A DNA stretch of 64,000 bases from Deltaproteobacteria bacterium (GCA_020848545.1 JADLHZ010000012.1:248001-312000); one strand, 5' to 3'; positions 4,411 to 18,148 are shown, counted from the first letter of the stretch. The notes: generated from the letters alone by a model not told the origin. A program made the numbers and translations.

Positions 4411-5298
4411 CTAACGCTCGATGTCGCGGTGGCGGACGCCGATCAAGGCGCCGTCGACGACCATCGGATGTGCCAACACTTGGTGCAGATGCTCAACCAG
4501 CGTCACCGAGCGATGCTTCCCGCCGGTGCAACCGATCGCGACGGTCAGGTATCGTTTTCCCTCCCGCTGGTAAAGGGGCACCAAGTGACGCAGCAGGTCA
4601 TGCACCCGACCCAAGAATTCGCCCGCGTTCGGGTCGGCCATCACGTAGTCGCGCACGCGGCTGTCGGCGCCGGTGAACGCCTTCAGTGTCGGCTCGAAGA
4701 AGGGATTCTTCAGGTGGCGCACGTCGAGCACGAGATCGGCGCCGACCGGCAAGCCGTACTTGTAGCCGAACGAGAGCAGCGTGATCGACATGCCGCGGCC
4801 GTCGCTCTGCGCGGCGACACCGTCTTTGATCAACTTGCTGAGCTCATGGCGGTTCAAGCTCGAGGTGTCGAGGATGCGCGTCGCGAGGTCGCGCACCGGA
4901 ATCAACGCTTGCCGCTCGGCGACGATGCTCTCGACCAGCGTGTGGCCGTCGAGCGGGTGCCGGCGGCGCGTCTCGCTGAAGCGACGGATGAGCACTTCGT
5001 CGGACGCGTCGAGGAAGAGCACGTCGACGCTGTGGCCGGCGTCGCGCAGATCTTGCACCGCGCGCGGTACGTCTTCGAGCAGGTGACCGGAGCGCGCGTC
5101 TAACACGAGCGCGATGCGACTCCGGTGATCGCGCGCGTTCAAGCAGGCGTCGACGGCTTCCTTGGCGAGCCGCGGCGGCAAGTTGTCGATGCAGAAGAAG
5201 CCTTCGTCCTCGAGCGCCTGCACCGCCGTCGTCTTGCCGGATCCGCTCATCCCCGTGACGAGCGCGATCCACGCCCGCGCCGGCTCACTCGACGTCAT
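4411..5298 (-). CDS. rapZ: RapZ/YvcJ-family nucleotide-binding protein
   Basis: An ATP/GTP-binding protein of the RapZ family. The P-loop GMSGSGKTTAVQ is at about residues 16-27, followed by EGFFCIDNLPP. The C-terminal domain has AIGCTGGKHRSVTLVEHL, which in E. coli RapZ belongs to the RNA- and sugar-phosphate-sensing half. The start at 5298 is preferred because a GAGGT site precedes that ATG and it overlaps the hprK stop by 14 bp; a start at 5340 would add 14 residues. The length of 295 residues matches the family (about 284). In this context it is part of the PTS/HprK operon; its target here is unknown. Confidence 0.9.
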   Translation of the reverse strand: MTSSEPARAWIALVTGMSGSGKTTAVQALEDEGFFCIDNLPPRLAKEAVDACLNARDHRSRIALVLDARSGHLLEDVPRAVQDLRDAGHSVDVLFLDASDEVLIRRFSETRRRHPLDGHTLVESIVAERQALIPVRDLATRILDTSSLNRHELSKLIKDGVAAQSDGRGMSITLLSFGYKYGLPVGADLVLDVRHLKNPFFEPTLKAFTGADSRVRDYVMADPNAGEFLGRVHDLLRHLVPLYQREGKRYLTVAIGCTGGKHRSVTLVEHLHQVLAHPMVVDGALIGVRHRDIER

Positions 5299-6256
5299 CA
5301 CCGACCTCGCCGGCTTCTTGCTCGCGGCGCTCGATCTCACGCGTCAATCGCTCCTGGAACGCGCGCGCGGCGTGGTGACCTTGCATCTTCAGCAGTTGAT
5401 TGCGCGCGGCGACCTCGACGATGCCCGCCATGTTGCGGCCGGGCTTCACCGGCACCGTCAGCTTCGGCACGCGCACGTCCAAGATCTCGTAGTGCTCTTC
5501 GTCGATGCCCAAGCGCTCGTACTCGGCGTTCTCGTCCCAATCGACGAGCTCGATCACGATCTCGATCTTCTTGCGCTCGCGCACGGCGGCGACGCCGAAC
5601 ATGTCCTTGATGTTGATGATGCCGAGGCCGCGGATCTCCATGTGGTGCTTGATGAGATCGGATCCGGCGCCGTAGATCGAGTCGGTGCCCTTCGACTTGA
5701 TCTCGACGATGTCGTCGGCGACCAAGCGATGGCCGCGGAGCACGAGGTCGAGCGCCGTCTCGCTCTTTCCGACGCCGGAATGGCCGAGCAAGAGCACGCC
5801 GACGCCGAGCACGTCGCACAAGACGCCGTGAACGCTGGTCGCGACCTGCAGCGTCTCTTCCAAGAAGTTCTGCACCCGCGCGATGCACGACGACGTCGGC
5901 AGCTGCGAGACGAAGAGCGCGGTCTGCGATTGCTCGGCTTCCTCGATCACCTCGGCCGGCAGCTCTTGGCCGTTCGTCACGACGACGGCGCAGATGCGCA
6001 GGTTGAAGAAGCGGCGCACCGCGTGGCGCAATTCTTTGGGCGAGAGCCGCATCAAGTACGTGAGCTCGGTGTTGCCGAGGATGTGCACGCGGTGCGGGTT
6101 GATCGACTCGACGTAGCCGGCGAGCGCGAGGCCTGGCTTCTGGATGCGCGGGCTGTCGATCTTGCGCTTGGTGCCGGCTTCACCCGCGAGCAGCGTCAGC
6201 TCGAGGCCGTGCTCGGTGTCATCGAGCAGGTCCTGGGCTGTGACGCGGTTGATCAC
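5285..6256 (-). CDS. hprK: HPr kinase/phosphorylase
   Basis: The protein has 323 residues, the normal length. It phosphorylates and dephosphorylates the regulatory serine of HPr. The P-loop LLGHSGVGKSETALDL is at about residues 157-172 with the conserved SVHGVL just before it and the signature region EIRGLGIINIKDMFG after it. The start is GTG at 6256. It heads the run hprK-rapZ-EIIA-HPr on the minus strand and is divergent, with a 54-bp gap, from the M50/HlyD gene at 6311. In related genomes hprK usually follows ptsN; here an 8.5-kb island separates them. Confidence 0.93.
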   Translation of the reverse strand: MINRVTAQDLLDDTEHGLELTLLAGEAGTKRKIDSPRIQKPGLALAGYVESINPHRVHILGNTELTYLMRLSPKELRHAVRRFFNLRICAVVVTNGQELPAEVIEEAEQSQTALFVSQLPTSSCIARVQNFLEETLQVATSVHGVLCDVLGVGVLLLGHSGVGKSETALDLVLRGHRLVADDIVEIKSKGTDSIYGAGSDLIKHHMEIRGLGIINIKDMFGVAAVRERKKIEIVIELVDWDENAEYERLGIDEEHYEILDVRVPKLTVPVKPGRNMAGIVEVAARNQLLKMQGHHAARAFQERLTREIERREQEAGEVGDDVE

Positions 6257-6310
6257 CTGTCCAGGGTATCAGGAGGTAGCACCCGGAGGCAAAGCGGTTA
6301 GACTTGCTGC

Positions 6311-8776
6311 GTGAGCGCTGCCGCCCTTCGCTACGTCCGCCCAGACCTCGTGCTGAAGCAGCGCGTCGACGAAGAGAGCGGCGACGAGACCTACGTCATC
6401 AAGGATCGCGTCTCGAACCGCTACTGGCTCGTCGGGCCGATTCAGTTCGAGGTCGCGCGCATCTTCGCGCAGACCGGCAAGCCGTACGCAGCCCTCAAGC
6501 AGGAAGTGCAAGACTGCTTCGAGGACGAGGTCACCGACGACGACATCACGTCCGTCTACCAAGACTTCCACCAGCTCGGGCTCTTGCAGCTCGTGCCGGA
6601 AGAGGTCGCGCAGCGGCAGATCCCGTTGAAGCAGTACCGGGCCGCGCTCCGCCGCTTCGGCGTGACCATGCGCCGCGCGTCGCCGCCGTTGCAAGCGTAT
6701 CTGCGCGAGGTCGAGGCGCCGAACGCAGACATGCTCGCGCTCTTCAACGCGCATCAGGCGCTGGCCCGAAAGTACCCCGACGACGCCTTGGTGCTGCGCG
6801 CCGGCGAGGCGTTCTTTGCGGCCGACGCGCAAGAAGTGAAGCGCAAGCAGATGGCACAGATGCCGCCCGTCGTGCGGCTGATGCGCGTGCAAAAACCGCT
6901 GATCGATCCGAACGAGCACTTCGATCGCTGGCTGCCGCGCCTGCGCTTCATCTTCACCCGCTGGTTCTTCGTGCTCACGCTGATCGTCAGCGCCTTCGGC
7001 TTCGCGATCTACGCCGCGCGCCTGCCGGAGCTCGCGAACATGATGACGGTCGTCGCGAGCAATATTCCGCTGCTCGTCATCTGCGCCGCGATCATGCTCT
7101 TCGTCCATGAGTGCATGCACGGCCTCACCTGCAAGTACTTCGGCGGCGAGGTGCGCGACATGGGCGTGATGCTCATGATGCTGACGATCCCCGCCGCTTA
7201 CGCCGACGTGAGTGACGCGCACTTGTTCGAGTCGCGCAAGGCGAAGGCGTGGGTGACCTTCGCCGGCACCTATTCGTCCTTCGTCGTCGCCGCGCTCGGG
7301 ACGCTGATCTGGAGCTACACCGAGACCGACACGATCCTGAACCACGCCGGGCTGATGTTCGCGATGAGCGGCTTCGCCGTCGTCTTCTCGAACCTGAACC
7401 CGCTGATCCCGCTCGACGGCTACTTCTTGCTCTGCGATCTCACGGGCATCGAGAACTTGCGCGAGCGCGCGATGCCCTACGCCCGCGCGTACATCGCGGC
7501 GCTGATCAACAAGAAGGCGCCAAAGCCCGCCGGGAGCCCAAAGGAGCGCACGATCTTCCTCGGCTTCTACGTGTTCGCCACGATGTATCAGATTTCATAC
7601 GTCTTCGTGATGCTCTCGCTCGGCTGGATGACGCTCGTGCGCGGCGGCAACGTCGCCACGCTGATGCTCTTCTGCTTGCTCGTCTACGTCATGTACGCGC
7701 GACCCTACGGGCGAAAGCTCTGGCAGCTCAGGAAGAACCAGCCGCACGCGTTTGCGATGGCGATGAGCGCCGCGATGATCTTGCTCGCGCTGGCGATCTT
7801 CGTCCCACGCGAAGCGAAGGTCACGATCGACGCGAAGGTCGTTCCTGGCGTGCACCGCGAGCTCAGCGTGGGTGAGACGGCCACCGTACGCAGGCTGGTC
7901 GCGCACGCCGGTGAATGGGTCGACAAGGACGCGCTGATCATCGAGCTCGGATCCGAGGAGCTCGAGATCGAGACGATGCGCGCGAAGTCGGAGCTGATGC
8001 AGGTAGAGAGCGAGCTGCAAAACCTCGGCAAAGGTCCGCAGGAGGAGCTGGTCAACGCGTACGAAGAGCAGGCTCGCAGCGGACGCTTGGAGCAGATGCG
8101 TCGCTTCGCCGCCCAGTCACGGCTCGAAGGTGAGCTCGCGCTCGGCGTCGCCACAGTTTCCTCCCTCGACGCTGCGATGCTCGGCACCGCGGCCAGCGCC
8201 ACGCGCGCCAAAGAGCGGCAGATCAACGTCGACTCCTTGTACAACGATCCGCTGCGCCGGCTCACGATCCAACGCGCCGGAATGAAGGCGGAGTACCTGC
8301 GGCGCAAGTTGATGGAGCTCGCTGACCGCAGGGACGCGATGCAGATCCGCGCGCCGATCGCTGGCTGGGTGATCTACGATCAGAAGGACTTTTCCGAAGG
8401 GAGCGCGATCGCGGCGGGCGAGAGCTTCGGCATCGTCGCCGCGACCTTCGCGCTCTCGGGGGTGCTTCCCGAAGCGTACATGGGCCTCTTCGAGCGTGTG
8501 ACGCGCTGCGAGGCGTACGTCAGCCATGCGCGTGTCGCCGTCAAAGACGTGGCCATCTGGCAGCCGAAGAAGCCGGACTGGGAGAAGAAGAACCACGGCG
8601 CCGTCGCCTACGCTGAGCTCACAGCGGCGCCGACCGCGGACAAGTCACGGCCGCCCGTCTTCTTCGGCGCCACCGGCGAGCTCATCGTCCATGCCGACAA
8701 ACGGACGAGCTCGCTCTGGCTTTGGACCAAGCGATCGGTGACCGAAGGCATCCTCGATTTGTGGCGAATGATCTGA
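6311..8776 (+). CDS. PqqD-like / M50 site-2 metalloprotease / HlyD fusion protein
   Basis: The protein has 821 residues in three parts. Residues about 10-95 look like a PqqD-type peptide-binding winged helix (KDRVSNRYWLVGPIQFEVA). Residues about 210-490 form a polytopic M50 metalloprotease with HECMHG (His266, Glu267, His270) and the partner motif NPLIPLDGY with Asp369. Residues about 500-821 are a HlyD/membrane-fusion arm (TIDAKVVPGVHRELS, then GEWVDKDALIIEL and a helical hairpin). Such proteins are annotated as putative peptide zinc metalloproteases beside peptide exporters. It starts with GTG at 6311 and heads an apparent plus-strand operon with the FHA-HlyD and TolC genes. No ABC ATPase is present in the locus. 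The substrate is inferred, not shown. Confidence 0.85.
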   Translation: MSAAALRYVRPDLVLKQRVDEESGDETYVIKDRVSNRYWLVGPIQFEVARIFAQTGKPYAALKQEVQDCFEDEVTDDDITSVYQDFHQLGLLQLVPEEVAQRQIPLKQYRAALRRFGVTMRRASPPLQAYLREVEAPNADMLALFNAHQALARKYPDDALVLRAGEAFFAADAQEVKRKQMAQMPPVVRLMRVQKPLIDPNEHFDRWLPRLRFIFTRWFFVLTLIVSAFGFAIYAARLPELANMMTVVASNIPLLVICAAIMLFVHECMHGLTCKYFGGEVRDMGVMLMMLTIPAAYADVSDAHLFESRKAKAWVTFAGTYSSFVVAALGTLIWSYTETDTILNHAGLMFAMSGFAVVFSNLNPLIPLDGYFLLCDLTGIENLRERAMPYARAYIAALINKKAPKPAGSPKERTIFLGFYVFATMYQISYVFVMLSLGWMTLVRGGNVATLMLFCLLVYVMYARPYGRKLWQLRKNQPHAFAMAMSAAMILLALAIFVPREAKVTIDAKVVPGVHRELSVGETATVRRLVAHAGEWVDKDALIIELGSEELEIETMRAKSELMQVESELQNLGKGPQEELVNAYEEQARSGRLEQMRRFAAQSRLEGELALGVATVSSLDAAMLGTAASATRAKERQINVDSLYNDPLRRLTIQRAGMKAEYLRRKLMELADRRDAMQIRAPIAGWVIYDQKDFSEGSAIAAGESFGIVAATFALSGVLPEAYMGLFERVTRCEAYVSHARVAVKDVAIWQPKKPDWEKKNHGAVAYAELTAAPTADKSRPPVFFGATGELIVHADKRTSSLWLWTKRSVTEGILDLWRMI

Positions 8777-8800
8777 GACGCGACTACCCTTTCATTACGC

Positions 8801-11188
8801 ATGGTTTACAACGACGGCTGGGACAGTAAGCCCGGCGAAGAAGACGAGCCGAGCCCAGGGAGCGCCGCGCCGAAGCCGGCCGCTGCTCCGGCCAAGCCCG
8901 TGTCGAAGCCTGCGGCCAAGACGAACGACGTCGCGACCGGCGCCGCGCAGCCTGCGGGCAACACCCGGCCGATCGCGGTCGGCTCGAAGACCACCGATTT
9001 GAAGGCGCGCGCGAACGAGAGCAGCGCGCCGAAACCCGCGCCGAAAGCCGAGAGCAGCGCGCCGAAACCCGCACCTAAGACCGACAGCAGCGCACCGAAG
9101 CCCGCACCGCGAGCAGATAGCAGCGCGCCAAAGACGCGGCCGAACGAGCGGGTCTTGCCGGTCGCCGAGAGCAGCGCGCCGAGAGCCGCACCGCGAAGCG
9201 AGAGCAGCGCGCCAAAAGCGGTGCCCATCGACGCACACGGCACGCGCGAAGATCGCGCGCTCCTCTGCTGCGTGATCGGCAACAGCGTCTATCGCATCGG
9301 CTTACAAAAAGACGTGAGCATCGTCGGTCGCTCGCTCGAGTGCGACGTCAAGCTCGACGTCATCTCGGTCTCACGCCGCCACTGCAAGCTGACGATCGGC
9401 CGCGACGGCAAGAACCTCATCGAGGATCTCAAGTCGAGCGGCGGCACCTTCGTCGGCAGCGACCCCGAGGCGCTCACGGCGAACCGCATCACGGCGTCGA
9501 GCGAGCTGAAGCCGTTCAGCTACGTGCGCTTCGGCGAGATGAAGTTCGCGTTCATCGTCCCAAAGCCCTCGACCGAGCCCGGCTCGTTCATCCTGCACCC
9601 GCAGAACAACGACAAGCCGCTCGACGTGACGGGCGACTCGCTCTCGGTCGGCCGCGTCGGCTGCGATCTGACGATCAACGCGAAGCAAGTCTCGTCACGC
9701 CACGCGCTCTTCGAGTGCTACGGCGAAGACATCGTCTATCTCTACGATCTCGGCAGCAGCAACGGCACCTTCGTCAACGGCAAGCGCATCACCTTGCCGG
9801 TGAAGCTGCGCACGGGCGACCTCGTCGCGTTCGGCGACATCACCTATCGCTTCCAAAACGGCCAGGAAGCGAACAGCACGCGCATGGGCGTCGACCTCGA
9901 CGCGATCAACTCCGAGGGCAAGCTGAAGTCGTCGTCGACGCAGCTTCTCTCGCAAGAAGATCTCGAACGCGCACGCGCTCAGCTCGAGCAAGCGAAGGCC
10001 GGCACGGTTCCGGTCGGAGCGGCGGGCGACGCGGTGCGGGCCGAGATGGCAGCAGAGGTCGCCGCGCGCCCGGCCGAAGCAAAGCCGGCGACGCCGCCGA
10101 CGCGGCAACAAGCGCAAGTTCAGGCCGACCTCAAAGGTCGCGTCCGCGGCGCGATCAACGAAGGCCGCCAGCGCATCAAGAACGGCGATCGCAAGTACCT
10201 CGTGAAGGTCGTGCTCGGCGCCGTGTGCGTGCTCGGCCTCTTTTATCCGTATCCGCTCCTCGTCGGTGGCGAGGCGCGCGTCACGCCGGGCCAGGTCGAT
10301 CGGGTGCGGCCGCAGCTCGGCGGCCAAGTCGAAAAAGTGCTGGTCGCCGAGGGGCAAGAGGTCAAGGTCGGCGACGAGCTCGTGCGGCTCTCGGACAAGA
10401 TGGTCGCGTTCGAGAAGAAGCGCGCCGAGCTGGCGCTGCAACAGTCGCAAGCGTCGCTGCAGATGCTCATGAAGGGGCCGACGCCGGAAGTGCTGAAGAT
10501 GGCCGCCGAACGCAGGCGCGGGGCGCAGACCGCAGCGGCGTTCGCCAAGCGCACGAACGATCGCAATTTGAAATTGGCGCAAGAGGGCATCCTCTCGGCG
10601 CAGGCGCTGCAAAACAGCCAAGAAGCGCTCGCCGCCGCCAACCAGGCGGTGCGGGAGGCCGAGCGCAACTACGAGCTGACGAGCGCCAAACCGACGCCCG
10701 AGCGCATCTCGATGCAGAAGGCCGACGTCGAGCGCGCCGAAAAAGAGCTCGCGCTCGTCGACGAGCAGCTGAAGAACCTCACGCTGCGCTCGAAGATCAT
10801 CGGCAAGGTGGCGACGCCGAACGTCACGGCGCTGCAGTCGCGCTTCGTCGCGGCCGGCCAAGAGGTGGTCGAGGTACACAACACCGATTCGATGATCATC
10901 GAGATCTTGGTGCCCGAGAGCGAGATCGCCGACGTGCGCGTGGGCCAACCGGTCGCGGTCAAAGTCCGCACGAATCCGGGCGAGGTCTTCGCTGGTTCCG
11001 TCACCACGATCACCCCCGTCGCCGAGCAAAGCCTCCTCGGGTCGCGCATCGTCGTGAAGGCGCAAGTACCGAACGACAAAAAGACACTCATCCCCGGCAC
11101 CACGGGCACCGCGAAGATCCGCGCTGAGCGGCAGTTGATCATCGCGCAAATCCTTCGCCGCTTGCTCCGGACCTTCCGCTTCGAATGA
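8801..11188 (+). CDS. Membrane-fusion (HlyD) protein with Ala-Pro repeats and two N-terminal FHA domains
   Basis: The protein has 795 residues. Residues 1-150 are disordered and Ala/Pro/Ser-rich, with SSAPKPAP repeats. FHA domain 1 is about 155-245 (IVGRSLECDV, SRRHCKL). FHA domain 2 is about 258-355 and is canonical (SVGRVGCDL, SSRHALF, LGSSNGTFVNGKRI). A coiled-coil stretch leads to one membrane helix at about 470-490 (VVLGAVCVLGLFYPYPLL). A HlyD module follows: lipoyl-like half GGQVEKVLVAEGQEVKVGD, helical hairpin, and beta-barrel. The layout predicts phosphothreonine-reading FHA domains in the cytoplasm and an adaptor in the periplasm. Its stop overlaps the TolC start by 4 bp (ATGA). Confidence 0.88.
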   Translation: MVYNDGWDSKPGEEDEPSPGSAAPKPAAAPAKPVSKPAAKTNDVATGAAQPAGNTRPIAVGSKTTDLKARANESSAPKPAPKAESSAPKPAPKTDSSAPKPAPRADSSAPKTRPNERVLPVAESSAPRAAPRSESSAPKAVPIDAHGTREDRALLCCVIGNSVYRIGLQKDVSIVGRSLECDVKLDVISVSRRHCKLTIGRDGKNLIEDLKSSGGTFVGSDPEALTANRITASSELKPFSYVRFGEMKFAFIVPKPSTEPGSFILHPQNNDKPLDVTGDSLSVGRVGCDLTINAKQVSSRHALFECYGEDIVYLYDLGSSNGTFVNGKRITLPVKLRTGDLVAFGDITYRFQNGQEANSTRMGVDLDAINSEGKLKSSSTQLLSQEDLERARAQLEQAKAGTVPVGAAGDAVRAEMAAEVAARPAEAKPATPPTRQQAQVQADLKGRVRGAINEGRQRIKNGDRKYLVKVVLGAVCVLGLFYPYPLLVGGEARVTPGQVDRVRPQLGGQVEKVLVAEGQEVKVGDELVRLSDKMVAFEKKRAELALQQSQASLQMLMKGPTPEVLKMAAERRRGAQTAAAFAKRTNDRNLKLAQEGILSAQALQNSQEALAAANQAVREAERNYELTSAKPTPERISMQKADVERAEKELALVDEQLKNLTLRSKIIGKVATPNVTALQSRFVAAGQEVVEVHNTDSMIIEILVPESEIADVRVGQPVAVKVRTNPGEVFAGSVTTITPVAEQSLLGSRIVVKAQVPNDKKTLIPGTTGTAKIRAERQLIIAQILRRLLRTFRFE
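9017..9232 (+). repeat. Tandem 33-bp coding repeats (SSAPKPAP units)
   Basis: Six imperfect units encode (E/D)SSAPKPAP(K/R)x, residues 73-144 of the FHA-HlyD protein. The first three and the last two are 11 residues each; the fourth is expanded to 17. The DNA units share the core agcagcgcgccgaa. It is a flexible Pro/Ala linker before the first FHA domain and likely varies in copy number between strains. Confidence 0.85.
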
Positions 11189-12870
11189 CCACGCGCGCGA
11201 TGGCCATCGCTCTCTTACTCTCATTGTGCGGCGGCGCTGCGCTCGCGGCAGCGCACCGGCCCTCTGCCCGGACGTCGGATCCGCCCGCTGCCGAGCCTTC
11301 GACCGATGTGCCGACCGAGCTTCCAGCCGAGATCCTCGCCTTCTCCGAGGACACGCGCACGCCGATGGCCATCTCGCTGAAAGACGCGGTCGAGCTCACC
11401 GTCGGCCAAAACGCACAGCTCGTCAGCGCCCGGGTCGACGAAACGATCGCTGGCGCCGAGAAGCTGCGCGCGTGGAACGTCTTCGTGCCGGTGTTTCGCG
11501 CGGACTTCGGCGCGACGCGATCGTGGCGCGAGGCCACGGCCGACTCCGGCTTTCCGAACTCGAGCTTGCGCGCCCTGCAAGGCGGCGCCGGCGTCACCAG
11601 CTTCGTTCCCACCGGCACCTCGCTGGCCGCGAGCGTTCGCCTCGTCGAGAACAGCAACGACGCGCGCGCGGCTGCGTTCTACAAAGATCACTTCGCCATC
11701 GTGCGCTTCGAGCTCACGCAGTCGCTCATTCGCCGCATCGGGTTGAACGTCGATCTCGCGTCCTTCCTCGTCGCCAAGGCCGGGCACAAGGCCGCAGAGC
11801 AGCGCTTGCAGTTCGTCTGCGAGCAGATCGTGCAGCGCGTCGGTCAGGCGTACTTCGGCATGCTCGAGACCACCGAGGTCTACAAAGCGCGCCGCGAAGG
11901 ACGCCGCCTCGCCGTCGATCTCTACGACCTCACGAAGCGGCGCATCGCCAACGGCTCGGCTGCGCCCTACGAGGTGTTCCAGGCGCAGTCGTCGCTCGCC
12001 GCGCGCTACAGCGTGGAGCTCGCCGCCGAGCAATCGCTCGACTTCGCCAACGAGGCGCTGCTTCAGCTCTTCAACGCACGCATCCGCACCGACGGCCGGG
12101 TCAGCGCACAATCGATGCTCGTGCTCGCGCAAGACGCGGAGCCGATCTACGCGGGCGATCCCTTGGAGCAGCTCTTCGATCGGGCGCTCAAACAGCGACC
12201 GGACTTCCTCGCATCGCAAAGCGACGTCGAGGGCGCCGACGCGCAGCACTACGCGGCGTTTCGAAACTCGCTGCCGGAGCTGAGCGCGCGCGGCTTCGTC
12301 GAAGCGCAAGGCGCGGCGGGCTTTCTGTCCGACACCGCCGTCCGCAACATCTCGAACAGCTTGTCGACCTTCGATCCGCGGCGCATCGGCAACTTGGGGA
12401 GCGCCTTTCAGAACGTCGGCGATCTCTCGTTCTGGAACTGGGGCGTGTTCCTGCAGCTCGAAGTGCCGCTGCTGCTCGGCGCCGAGCGCGCGAACCTGAA
12501 GATCGCCGCCGCCGCCCTGCAGCGCACGCAAGCGAGCCGCATTGCCATCGAGCAGCAGCTCCGCACCGACGTTGCCATCGCCCACGCGCAGCAGGCCCGC
12601 GCGATCCGCCGGGTCACCGTCGCCAAGGCCTCGCTCGACGCCGCCCGCCAAAACCTCGCCGCCGAGACCAAGAAGATGAAGCTCGGCTCGAGCACGAACT
12701 TCGACGTGCTGCGGATTCAGGACGAAGTGATCAACGCCTACGTGAACATCGCGACCGCCAAAGCCGAGCTCGGCCGCGCCACCGTCAACCTGCGCTTCGC
12801 GCTCGGCGAAGGCCGCGAAGGCATGCGCTTCGAAGTCAAGTCGATCTTCGCCGACGAACGTGCTCGCTGA
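11185..12870 (+). CDS. TolC-family outer-membrane efflux protein
   Basis: The protein has 561 residues. A Sec signal (MAIALLLSLCGGAALAAA) precedes two long heptad-rich outer-membrane-factor repeats. TolC-type features include ISLKDAVELTVGQNAQL, the helical AEKLRAW segment, FELTQSLIRR, and a C-terminal GSSTNFDVLRIQDEVINA with LGRATVNLRFALGEG, which matches the usual end of the second repeat. It would form the trimeric outer-membrane channel for the two HlyD adaptors encoded upstream. The ATG overlaps the FHA-HlyD stop by 4 bp, so coupled translation is likely. Confidence 0.9.
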   Translation: MTTRAMAIALLLSLCGGAALAAAHRPSARTSDPPAAEPSTDVPTELPAEILAFSEDTRTPMAISLKDAVELTVGQNAQLVSARVDETIAGAEKLRAWNVFVPVFRADFGATRSWREATADSGFPNSSLRALQGGAGVTSFVPTGTSLAASVRLVENSNDARAAAFYKDHFAIVRFELTQSLIRRIGLNVDLASFLVAKAGHKAAEQRLQFVCEQIVQRVGQAYFGMLETTEVYKARREGRRLAVDLYDLTKRRIANGSAAPYEVFQAQSSLAARYSVELAAEQSLDFANEALLQLFNARIRTDGRVSAQSMLVLAQDAEPIYAGDPLEQLFDRALKQRPDFLASQSDVEGADAQHYAAFRNSLPELSARGFVEAQGAAGFLSDTAVRNISNSLSTFDPRRIGNLGSAFQNVGDLSFWNWGVFLQLEVPLLLGAERANLKIAAAALQRTQASRIAIEQQLRTDVAIAHAQQARAIRRVTVAKASLDAARQNLAAETKKMKLGSSTNFDVLRIQDEVINAYVNIATAKAELGRATVNLRFALGEGREGMRFEVKSIFADERAR

Positions 12871-12887
12871 GGAATATAGAGGGACCC

Positions 12888-13355
12888 ATGAAAAAGATTC
12901 TTGTCGCTTTCGTTTTTATCGCTGGCTGCGGCTCTGCCGATCCTTTGATCGGCACCTGGCGCTCGACCGACATCGGGCAGTTCTCGCTGATCGCGAGCTC
13001 GTTGAACCAGACGCTCGTGTTCTCGAAGGACAAGAAGGTGAAGGCGACGGCGATTACGACCTACCGAGAGTCGGCGACGAACGCGCGCTGCCTGGAGACG
13101 AGCGAGGCGGAAGGCGTCTACGCGATCAGCGGGCCAGCGGACAACCAGCAGCTCGTCTTCACGTACACCGTCGGCAAGTTCACGCGCACGGAGTGCAAGG
13201 ACGCGACGCAGAACACGACCGACCGTGCCCTCTCCGAGGCTGAGATCGCGCTGAACAACGCGACGAGCGGCAAGGTCGTCATCTCGCCGACGACCTTCTC
13301 ACTGACGAACACGATCAACGGCACACAAGCGACGTACACCTTTCAGAAGCAGTAG
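12888..13355 (+). CDS. Small putative lipoprotein of unknown function
   Basis: The protein has 155 residues. It starts MKKILVAFVFIAGCG, a clear lipoprotein signal with Cys14, after an AGAGGGA ribosome site. The mature part begins LIGTWRSTDIGQFSLI and has alternating beta-strand patterns (TLVFSKDKKVKATAITTY, LVFTYTVGKF), as in lipocalin-like lipoproteins whose first motif is GTW. The family was not recognised with certainty. It lies 17 bp after the TolC gene on the same strand and precedes the two Gly-rich genes, so it probably belongs to the export locus. Confidence 0.75.
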   Translation: MKKILVAFVFIAGCGSADPLIGTWRSTDIGQFSLIASSLNQTLVFSKDKKVKATAITTYRESATNARCLETSEAEGVYAISGPADNQQLVFTYTVGKFTRTECKDATQNTTDRALSEAEIALNNATSGKVVISPTTFSLTNTINGTQATYTFQKQ

Positions 13356-13484
13356 CCTGATGTGCGTGCGAGTGGGCTTATGTGGCCCGTGTCGTTGCGT
13401 GAATTCTTAGCCCATCTGACGCGCGCCAGTTACAGTTGTCGAGAGACGCCGATCACAAAGAGCCGCACCGGCTCGGGAGCAAAC

Positions 13485-14120
13485 ATGACGACGACCACCG
13501 ACAAGAAGAAGCACAAGGGCACGGGCAAGAAGATGGAGTCGCTCGAGAACCGCGTGGCTCCGTTGGCGATCAGCAACCTCATGCAAAACGTGCAATTGGC
13601 CCAAGACCACGAGGGCGCCAACCGCATCGGCGCGACGACGTCGAACCAAGACGCGGGCAGCAGCAGCGGTGCTTCGACGGGTGGCGGCGGAAGTGGCGGC
13701 GGCGGTTCGCCCGTCATCATCAACCTGTCCAACTTCGGCAACTCGTCGAACGTCAACGCCAACGAAAACCATCAACTGCAAGAGAACAATCAGCACGTCG
13801 GCGACAACAAGAGCTTGTCGATCGACATCAAGAAAGACAGCCACGACAACAACTCGGTCACGGATGACCACAGCGTGCACGACAACGCCGGTCAAACGGC
13901 CGTCGCAAACGCGCAAGGCGGCGGCGCCGCTGGCGCGATCAACTTCGGCATCGGCGCCGGCAAGCAAGACCATGGCGGCGACGACGGCAAGATCAGTGGC
14001 GACGAGCCTATCGACACGAAGGGCGACGGGGACGAGGACCAGTCGTCGGCTGACGAGGAGAAACGCAAGTTGGAAGAAGAGCGCCGCCGTCGCGAGGCTG
14101 CAGCCGCTGGCAAGAAGTGA
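13485..14120 (+). CDS. Gly/Asn-rich protein with conserved LENRVAP leader (paralogue A), candidate exported substrate
   Basis: The protein has 211 residues. The start at 13485 follows a GGGAGC site and gives MTTTTDKKKHKGTG; it also matches the start of paralogue B. The N-terminal 56 residues are basic then amphipathic (MESLENRVAPLAISNLMQNV). A Ser/Gly spacer, a middle block (SPVIINLSNFGNSSNVNANE), an Asn/His/Asp-rich stretch and DDHSVHDNAGQTAVAN follow, then a charged tail of Glu, Arg and Lys. No Sec signal, membrane helix or lipobox is visible. The combination of shared leader, low-complexity body and location behind an M50/HlyD/TolC set suggests an exported substrate, but this is inference. 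The function is unknown. Confidence 0.75.
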   Translation: MTTTTDKKKHKGTGKKMESLENRVAPLAISNLMQNVQLAQDHEGANRIGATTSNQDAGSSSGASTGGGGSGGGGSPVIINLSNFGNSSNVNANENHQLQENNQHVGDNKSLSIDIKKDSHDNNSVTDDHSVHDNAGQTAVANAQGGGAAGAINFGIGAGKQDHGGDDGKISGDEPIDTKGDGDEDQSSADEEKRKLEEERRRREAAAAGKK

Positions 14121-14173
14121 GCGATTTCTTTCGACGTCTCTAGCCCCGCACTGAAACACTTTTGGAGGCCACG

Positions 14174-14827
14174 ATGACCACGGATAAAAAGAAGCACAAA
14201 GGCACCGGCAAGAAGATGGAGTCGCTCGAGAACCGTGTGGCTCCGTTGGCGATCAGCAACCTCATGCAAAACGTGCAAGTGGCCCAAGACCACGAGGGCG
14301 CCAACCGCATCGGCGCGACGACGTCGAACCAAGACTCGAGCCCGGGTGCTGCCACCGGCGGCGGGTCGGGCGGCGGGAGTGGCGGCGGCTCGCCCGTCAT
14401 CATCAACCTGTCGAACTTCGGCAACTCGTCGAACGTCAACGCCAACGAGAACCACCAAGGCCAAGTGAACGATCAGCACGTCGGCGATGACATCGACGTG
14501 AAGGCGAGCCTGTCGATCGACAGCCACGACGACAACTCGAAGAAGGACGACCACAGCGTGCACGACAACGCCGGGCAGACGGCGGTCGCGAACTCGGAGG
14601 GTGGCGACGGCACGGGTGGCCCGCACGGCAAAGACGGCGGCAGGGGCGGCATGGCGATCGCTGCAAACCTCGGCCTCGGGGTTGGCATCCAAGGCGACGG
14701 TGCCGATGGCGGCGAGACCGGTGGGACCGACCCGACAAACCGCCTGCGCAGCAACCCGAATGGGGCGCCGAACGGCTCGGATGTGCCGGCAGCGCCGACG
14801 GCGATGATGGCATACAAGAAGAAGTAG
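14174..14827 (+). CDS. Gly/Asn-rich protein with conserved LENRVAP leader (paralogue B), candidate exported substrate
   Basis: The protein has 217 residues, a tandem paralogue of the gene before it. A strong GGAGG site five bases before the ATG at 14174 fixes the start. Its N-terminal leader (KKKHKGTGKKMESLENRVAP onwards) is identical to that of paralogue A for 50 residues except one Leu/Val change. The blocks SPVIINLSNFGNSSNVNANE and DDHSVHDNAGQTAVAN are also kept, while the Gly spacer and C-terminal half have diverged; this copy ends in a Gly/Asp-rich tract and AMMAYKKK. It has no Sec signal. It ends 10 bp before the convergent ptsN gene. Confidence 0.75.
   Translation: MTTDKKKHKGTGKKMESLENRVAPLAISNLMQNVQVAQDHEGANRIGATTSNQDSSPGAATGGGSGGGSGGGSPVIINLSNFGNSSNVNANENHQGQVNDQHVGDDIDVKASLSIDSHDDNSKKDDHSVHDNAGQTAVANSEGGDGTGGPHGKDGGRGGMAIAANLGLGVGIQGDGADGGETGGTDPTNRLRSNPNGAPNGSDVPAAPTAMMAYKKK
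14186..14335 (+). repeat. Second copy of a 150-bp duplicated leader-coding segment (first copy 13503-13652)
   Basis: The 150 bases here match 13503-13652 at 145 positions by direct reading. Four differences are silent and one changes Leu to Val. The remainder of the two genes is much less similar, so the leader has either duplicated recently or is under strong constraint or gene conversion. Confidence 0.9.
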
Positions 14828-14837
14828 CCCGCCCGAA

Positions 14838-15299
14838 TCAGCAGCGCGCGTCTTCGTCCGAAATAATCCTAAAGATCGAGCCCGCGTCGTCAGCCCTCAA
14901 CAGGCGGTCGCGGAACTCTTGGCTCTTCAGCAAGCGCGAGATCCGCGCCAGCGCCTTCAGGTGCAAGCCGGCCGAGTTGTTCGGCGCCAACAAGACGAAG
15001 AACAGGTGCGACGGCTGGCTGTCGATCGCCGCAAAGTCGATGCCTGGGGTGCTCTTGGCGAAGCACGCGACCAGGTTGTCGATGCCGTTCAGCTTGCCGT
15101 GCGGAATCGCCACGCCTTCGCCGATGCCGGTCGAGCCGAGCTTCTCGCGCTCGAGCAGCGTCTTCACCATGTCGTCGATCTTGAGGCCGGTCTTGTGCTT
15201 GGAGATGTGGGTGCACATCTGGCGGATGGCACCTTCTTTGTCGGCGGCGTCTAGCTCCGACATCACCATCTGCGGCGACAAGATCTCGACCAGTTTCAT
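14838..15299 (-). CDS. ptsN: PTS EIIA-Ntr (nitrogen regulatory) protein
   Basis: The protein has 153 residues, the normal length. The phosphorylation site is EGVAIPHGKL with His67. The family opening ILSPQMVMSELDAADKEGAI and the region LFFVLLAPNNSAGLHLKALA are present. It would receive phosphate from HPr and act as a regulator rather than a sugar carrier. It is the last gene of the lptA-lptB-rpoN-hpf-ptsN run, 29 bp after hpf, and is convergent with the export island. Confidence 0.93.
   Translation of the reverse strand: MKLVEILSPQMVMSELDAADKEGAIRQMCTHISKHKTGLKIDDMVKTLLEREKLGSTGIGEGVAIPHGKLNGIDNLVACFAKSTPGIDFAAIDSQPSHLFFVLLAPNNSAGLHLKALARISRLLKSQEFRDRLLRADDAGSIFRIISDEDARC

Positions 15300-17422: not shown

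Positions 17423-18144
<722 letters not shown>

Positions 18145-18148
<4 letters not shown>

Follow-up and report, generated by a model that had tools for sequence, protein, structure and literature searches.

Daptide gene clusters were found via a RiPP recognition element (RRE; RiPP, ribosomally synthesized and post-translationally modified peptide) fused N-terminally to a site-2 protease; the precursors contain the motif ELExMEAP, the leader, with proline at position -1, is removed by the RRE-dependent peptidase MpaP, and the clusters include ATP-binding cassette (ABC) transporters (PMC10036551). EpeP, an M50 protease, is thought to perform both cleavage and export (PMC10885120), while tripartite export systems are described as built on energised ABC, resistance-nodulation-division (RND) or major facilitator superfamily (MFS) transporters (PMC8277102). 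In Tuwongella immobilis, the sequence LxLExLExRxxP is the presumed planctomycete export signal and eight of the ten longest proteins are planctomycete-type LExLExR proteins; the available part of that account names no machinery for the signal (PMC8567305, citing Studholme 2004). Here we analysed a stretch of 64,000 nucleotides from a Deltaproteobacteria bacterium (GCA_020848545.1 JADLHZ010000012.1:248001-312000; hereafter the window, with all positions counted from its first letter), in which a six-gene plus-strand cassette combines elements of these systems. We consider it, with a probability of about 0.68, to be an export system that is guided by the RRE, coupled to the protease and directed at proteins bearing an LExR[IV]AP leader. 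Directly established are its parts, the intactness of the active-site motifs, the lack of a linked pump and, across phyla, the association of the leader with the fusion. A literature search covering the motif, the combination of PqqD, M50 and HlyD, and pump-less type I systems retrieved no description of the combination.

Composition of the cassette

The features of the cassette are as follows.

6311-8776, + strand: fusion of an RRE/PqqD-like domain, an M50 intramembrane metalloprotease and an HlyD periplasmic adaptor, 821 aa (Pfam, NCBIfam, AlphaFold2, Foldseek)
6338-6595, + strand: N-terminal winged-helix RRE/PqqD-like domain of the fusion, predicted leader reader (model and homologue profiles)
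8801-11188, + strand: FHA-FHA-TM-HlyD adaptor (TM, transmembrane segment), 795 aa (Pfam FHA E=1.9e-30, HlyD_D23 E=5e-15)
11185-12870, + strand: outer-membrane channel of the TolC type with a signal sequence at its N-terminus, 561 aa (Pfam OEP E=6.2e-29)
12888-13355, + strand: small lipoprotein-like gene, 155 aa, MKKILVAFVFIAGCGSADPLIGTW... (open reading frame with lipobox-like FIAGC)
13485-14120, + strand: leader-bearing paralogue 1, 211 aa, without Cys, Trp, Sec signal or transmembrane segment
13485-13562, + strand: leader of paralogue 1, MTTTTDKKKHKGTGKKMESLENRVAP; cleavage predicted after AP by analogy with daptides
14174-14827, + strand: leader-bearing paralogue 2, 217 aa
14174-14245, + strand: leader of paralogue 2, MTTDKKKHKGTGKKMESLENRVAP, which shares 96% identity with the paralogue 1 leader region
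6257-14837, no strand assigned: inferred inserted segment holding the cassette, between ptsN (14838-15299, - strand) and hprK (5285-6256, - strand)

The fusion is recognised as an M50 protease by Pfam (E=4.5e-7), and both its HExxH motif (HECMH, residues 266-270) and its LDGY motif (residues 368-371, within NPLIPLDGY at 363-371) are intact; among 52 homologues, the HExxH residues are at least 90% conserved and D369 is invariant. In the AlphaFold2 model (mean predicted local distance difference test score, pLDDT, 85.6), a bbbaaa winged helix at residues 14-90 is followed by a helical linker, M50 membrane-domain helices at 217-497 and a complete HlyD adaptor with helical hairpin at 503-795, and Foldseek groups the C-terminal part with the adaptors MacA, EmrA and MexA. 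The top NCBIfam match is daptide_HExxH (NF041824, E=2.2e-47), although its 162 bits remain below the 300-bit cut-off. PqqD, M50 and HlyD domains are found family-wide. With regard to the first of these, a Pfam PqqD search gave no match for the window fusion itself, whereas PF05402 matched 15 of the 52 family members, and a profile of the N-terminal domain retrieved the RRE of TfuB1 (6jx3, E 0.019) and PqqD (3g2b, E 0.039) as weak top matches in the PDB. The PqqD-like label given to this domain by an earlier reading of the sequence alone (the sequence-only reading) holds through the homologues and not through the Pfam search of the window protein, and we describe the domain, on profile and model evidence, as predicted RRE/PqqD-like. 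The protein is an RRE fused to an intramembrane site-2 protease, with the RRE match being weak for the window protein alone.

The 24-bp gap between the fusion and the FHA adaptor is followed by a 4-bp ATGA overlap with the TolC gene and a 17-bp gap to the lipoprotein-like gene. The FHA adaptor contains a single transmembrane segment (residues 465-483) preceded by a cytoplasmic pair of FHA domains, the second with a canonical GR..SSRH motif. The channel has a hydrophobic N-terminus and additionally matches TIGR01844 (7e-27) below the family cut-off; TolC genes are also present in about 20 related loci. The fusion, the second adaptor with two FHA domains, the outer-membrane channel and the two paralogues, all on a single strand with tight junctions over the first three genes, had been noted by the sequence-only reading, and these parts were confirmed at the stated positions. 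The lipoprotein-like gene between TolC and the paralogues was absent from that reading and gave no family in Pfam or NCBIfam.

The two paralogues, most likely starting at ATG 13485 and ATG 14174, are Gly/Asn/Asp-rich and share the leader LENRVAP, which the sequence-only reading had noted and which stands in the window within MESLENRVAP. Their first 56 codons differ by six synonymous and two non-synonymous changes, in contrast to 43 non-synonymous changes in the tail; the leaders are thus nearly identical, with mostly synonymous differences, and the tails have diverged. Neither a Sec signal, a transmembrane segment, Cys nor Trp was found in either protein, and a Pfam scan of both revealed no recognised domain. 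A second copy of the system in the same genome (contig C95) comprises, in one run with gaps of at most 6 bp, a 78-aa LENKVAP peptide (MSPRHAKKSNGKTFHALENKVAPMVV...), an M50-HlyD fusion (702 aa, about 40% identical) and an FHA-FHA-HlyD protein (552 aa). Linked proteins with an N-terminal LExRxAP-type leader are therefore represented by the two window paralogues and by the C95 peptide, and leader, fusion and FHA adaptor recur together at an independent locus.

Comparison with described systems

The cassette shares with daptide MpaP the position of the RRE N-terminal to M50, several short open reading frames nearby and a leader in which ELExRIAP, the family consensus, is close to ELExMEAP. The two motifs are related, not identical, and the window form MESLENRVAP departs likewise. 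Unlike MpaP, the window fusion has an HlyD adaptor fused to it and is accompanied by TolC and a second FHA- or, in relatives, GAF-HlyD protein, and unlike daptide clusters, which are described from Actinomycetota and Bacillota, the cassette is devoid of MpaB/C/D/M enzymes, of an ABC transporter and of a short core with an invariant C-terminal Thr. Because the modifying enzymes and the exact motif are absent, the cassette is not a daptide pathway. It also differs from EpeP/YydH (NF058609), for which the fusion scores 38.8 bits against a cut-off of 225, and which is Gram-positive, comes without HlyD or TolC and yields a modified peptide product.

An HlyD-type adaptor, TolC and Gly/Asn/Asp-rich predicted substrates recall the type I secretion system HlyB-HlyD-TolC. 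However, the ABC-type inner-membrane ATPase of such systems is missing, the leader is N-terminal instead of a C-terminal signal, and the adaptor is fused to a protease. No ABC or MFS pump is encoded in the cassette, as the sequence-only reading had stated, and the nearest ABC gene is an lptB-like housekeeping gene at 17423-18148. No linked ABC, MFS or RND pump was found, with an ABC-type ATPase lacking from the cassette and from C95 alike and not recurring among the 80 related loci. Since the ABC pump is absent, the cassette is not a type I secretion system, and of the earlier term "type I-like" the adaptor and TolC parts stand whereas the defining pump does not. The HlyD part has the fold of the tripartite efflux adaptors MacA, EmrA and MexA, from which the cassette differs in having no cognate pump and in the fusion of its adaptors to RRE-M50 or FHA domains.

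The leader resembles the planctomycete motif (PF07595), whose LxLExLExRxxP skeleton is N-terminal in large surface proteins, and in planctomycete loci the forms LEERIAP, LEDRIVP and LEERVAP occur beside M50-HlyD cassettes or share a genome with them. The window, however, is not planctomycete; the window paralogues gave no PF07595 match at E<=1, and the best related peptide reached 12.7 bits (E=0.11) against a gathering score of 25.5 bits. Overall, we regard the cassette as a new form of leader processing by an RRE and a site-2 protease, coupled to an HlyD/TolC conduit.

Leader genes accompany the fusion in about ten phyla

A scan of 85,000 species genomes yielded 80 related M50 loci, which represent about ten phyla and in which leader motifs were counted against permuted motifs as controls. 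Within the first 120 aa, LE.[RK].AP was found in 59 open reading frames (mean 2.0, maximum 10 for 100 permuted motifs), spread over 38 of the 80 loci, making it about 30 times commoner than permuted motifs, and 57 of the 59 lay on the strand of the M50 gene. A broadened ELExRIAP-type motif within 3 kb on the same strand was likewise detected at 38 of the 80 loci (permuted mean 0.15, maximum 2). The consensus in these loci reads M-K-x-L-K-L-x-I-E-E-L-E-[EQ]-R-I-A-P-G. Independently drawn loci again paired leader genes with the fusion (L204, L221, L223, L226, L227 and L228), among them L204 with a 2929-aa LEERIAP protein next to M50-HlyD, HlyD and GAF-HlyD. In a quick tree of M50-HlyD proteins, leader-linked fusions are distributed over several deep clades. 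The window leader is assigned to this family on account of its LExRxAP motif, its N-terminal position and linkage, the existence of a second copy, and intermediate forms, for example KPKLDRLEERVAPGM (LEERVAPGM, L154/L219). The cultured Adhaeretor mobilis (L024) is one carrier of the fusion and has a LEERIAP protein of 245 aa.

At the genome level, with a leader profile threshold of E<=1e-3, all eight leader-positive genomes among 197 Acidobacteriota fell within the 29 that encode M50-HlyD (p=9e-8), a result retained after removal of the seed genomes (6/6, p=4e-6), and in most of the leader-positive genomes the two genes are adjacent. Among 195 Planctomycetota genomes, five of five leader genomes were included in the 51 with M50-HlyD (p=0.001), the association being weak without the seed genomes (2/2, p=0.06); a single planctomycete genome (G227) contained 17 leader matches, many on large open reading frames. 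In the window's own phylum, a degenerate DNA pattern for ExLExR[IV]AP was uninformative, as a recurrent EFLENRIAP-type site and the control rates swamp the signal. Co-occurrence of leader proteins with the M50/HlyD fusion, which the sequence-only reading had put forward for a check, was thus recovered in dozens of loci from about ten phyla and at C95. The idea would have lost its ground if homologous loci never carried leader genes, and it survives with 38 of 80 loci and the genome-wide co-occurrence.

The regions following the leader differ completely across phyla. The smallest leader open reading frames encode peptides of 29-31 aa, some in tandem, followed by Gly/Ser/His/Lys-rich peptides of 45-130 aa and by large proteins, for which the Bdellovibrionota range is 1220-2013 aa and the Planctomycetota range 1491-2929 aa. 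The large-protein loci, with M50-HlyD, HlyD, GAF-HlyD, the giant leader protein and often TolC, come close to the set in the window. No curated Pfam or NCBIfam family covers the leader peptides, and the His-Xaa-Ser and collagen matches at L031 reflect repeat composition. GAF-HlyD adaptors are the usual counterpart of FHA-HlyD in related loci and occupy its place (e.g. L048, L088, L030 and L039), while L070 encodes a separate FHA protein; FHA as a universal part was rejected, as FHA-HlyD was seen only in the two copies of this genome.

Two sets of loci deserve separate description with regard to the leader itself. At L157 and L234 (139-492 in each), three near-identical tandem 31-aa genes (MAKKSTKKVVKLNVERLEKRIAPTRAAIAMG) with a predicted core of eight residues lie beside M50-HlyD. 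At L038, L043, L053 and L055, the variant leader RF[KR]ITRLEDRIVP is found on GGSSKK-type repeat proteins of 104-180 aa beside planctomycete M50-HlyD, and this variant links the RIAP leaders to the LExLExRxxP surface motif.

Proposed mechanism and alternative explanations

We propose that the RRE/PqqD-like domain would bind the leader and that the M50 domain would cut it at the inner membrane, probably directly after AP, as suggested by daptide_HExxH being the best match and by ELExRIAP and ELExMEAP having the same layout. The freed protein would then enter a periplasmic conduit composed of the HlyD part of the fusion, the FHA-HlyD adaptor and TolC, with both Gly/Asn/Asp-rich paralogues as putative dedicated substrates, and the cytoplasmic FHA pair would probably gate assembly via phospho-Thr binding, a role that GAF domains might take in other phyla. 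As no dedicated pump is encoded, passage of the chain through the inner membrane would fall either to the M50 membrane domain or to an unlinked transporter; the M50 domain may serve as the gate, given that cleavage and export are both attributed to EpeP. The daptide analogy lends good support to leader recognition and processing, and we infer binding, cleavage and its site, export, powering and gating. Same-phylum RiPP-type clusters, in which LExRIAP or LEPKxAP peptides adjoin PqqD-M50 proteins together with radical SAM or YcaO, also speak for the proposal. The earlier view of leader-processing export with the paralogues as substrates is partly supported, with respect to the leader association and the analogy, whereas cleavage, exit and powering are predictions of the model outlined here.

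These results connect one short N-terminal leader with a particular membrane machine in about ten phyla. If correct, the model would carry daptide-type leader removal by an RRE-protease beyond tiny peptides, to large proteins and into the Gram-negative envelope. The leader also offers a means of tracking down many secreted peptides and proteins that are as yet unannotated. How planctomycete-type LExLExR proteins get out, and whether an M50 protease, an adaptor and TolC can achieve pump-free protein export, can now be tested. A bolder and rather doubtful extension is that a separate Gram-negative secretion class exists, in which LExR[IV]AP-leader proteins, whether their cores are a few residues long or they are giant surface proteins, would be recognised, cleaved and exported by an RRE-protease-adaptor fusion with no ATPase or proton pump, and which would be the missing machinery for the planctomycete LExLExR signal.

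Several observations weigh against an export system of this kind. In 42 of the 80 related loci no such leader lies within 3 kb, some of these being at contig ends and some having giant leader proteins farther off, and in the tested Acidobacteriota genomes with a GAF-HlyD/HlyD/M50-HlyD arrangement the leader was absent genome-wide. A profile built without rows from the own genome misses the window leader, a divergent variant, and few genomes of the window's own phylum carry the family (3 of 195). No source of energy for transport was found. The paralogues could, moreover, be regulators or scaffolds that remain intracellular.

The main rival to the M50-gate idea, which we hold to be possible though tentative, is that the cassette supplies the maturation and outer-conduit half of a split type I-like system whose inner-membrane step is performed by an ABC or MFS transporter encoded elsewhere in the genome. 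Unpowered passage of large proteins through a membrane is improbable, and both the energised transporters of the described tripartite systems (PMC8277102) and the ABC transporters of daptide clusters (PMC10036551) speak for such a pump. However, ABC profiles matched just 6 of 85 loci, at scattered positions, the neighbouring genes show no recurrent pump family, and, over about ten phyla, one would expect a pump co-adapted to the cassette to accompany it in at least some cases. A RiPP pathway, in which the leader proteins would be precursors that undergo modification ahead of cleavage, through enzymes that are unrecognised or encoded elsewhere, appears unlikely: the RRE-like domain, the leader-core layout, the tandem small precursors, same-phylum clusters that pair LExRIAP or LEPKxAP peptides with PqqD-M50 proteins and radical SAM or YcaO, and a conserved 336-aa neighbour in 14 loci all fit it, but neither the window nor C95 contains a modifying enzyme, the window lacks the 336-aa protein, and a substrate length of 211-2929 aa and the lack of Cys in the window substrates would be atypical. 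M50 proteases elsewhere release regulators and FHA domains sense phosphorylation, so that both would suit stress signalling, with the fusion as a site-2 protease, the paralogues as regulatory baits freed by cleavage and HlyD/TolC as a separate small-molecule efflux route. We judge this improbable, as the window leader proteins have no transmembrane segment or recognised domain and the post-leader parts, ranging from 29-aa peptides to more than 2000 aa, differ wholly across phyla, as expected for cargo.

Genomic setting and related loci

The cassette lies within the minus-strand gene group rpoN-hpf-ptsN-hprK-rapZ, between ptsN and hprK. Sixteen same-phylum loci (L173-L180, L182-L189) have ptsN directly upstream of hprK, and this adjacency, with gene order as the sole basis, indicates that the cassette is an oppositely oriented insertion into a conserved gene group. 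The GC content gave no sign of foreign origin (0.651 for the cassette, 0.638-0.654 for the flanks). In an acidobacterial genome (L078/G231), several M50-HlyD copies were observed, one of which (G231:C5) contains an in-frame stop; these copies suggest cassette turnover.

Within the window's phylum, L018 (6990-10485, G012:C221) encodes a radical SAM/SPASM-like protein and, following it, four or more small peptides in tandem (..ELEQRIAPVKCDKNPEAPECQ..) as well as a PqqD-M50 protein that lacks HlyD; it is likely a RiPP cluster. At L016 (5965-17350) and L017 (2079-8784), YcaO proteins are located beside PqqD-HlyD and PqqD-M50-HlyD proteins; L016 also contains TolC and a 58-aa peptide with LKLQVKKLEPKSAPAKC, which has the same leader skeleton and is likely a YcaO precursor.

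In the small-peptide clade, the gene immediately downstream of M50-HlyD encodes the conserved neighbour of about 336 aa (L031, 12132-13142, and homologues, 14 loci, alignment A6). It contains a ParB/Srx-like NNGSHRAYxLRxxGxTHVPC stretch; the tested member had no Pfam match, and its model (pLDDT 34.5) was not used. In planctomycetes, a conserved protein of about 157 aa without Pfam match is encoded upstream of M50-HlyD at L041 (8732-9205) and ten more loci, and with its IDGNHRAARCLQLG motif, similar to that of the 336-aa neighbour, it could represent a second form of that partner.

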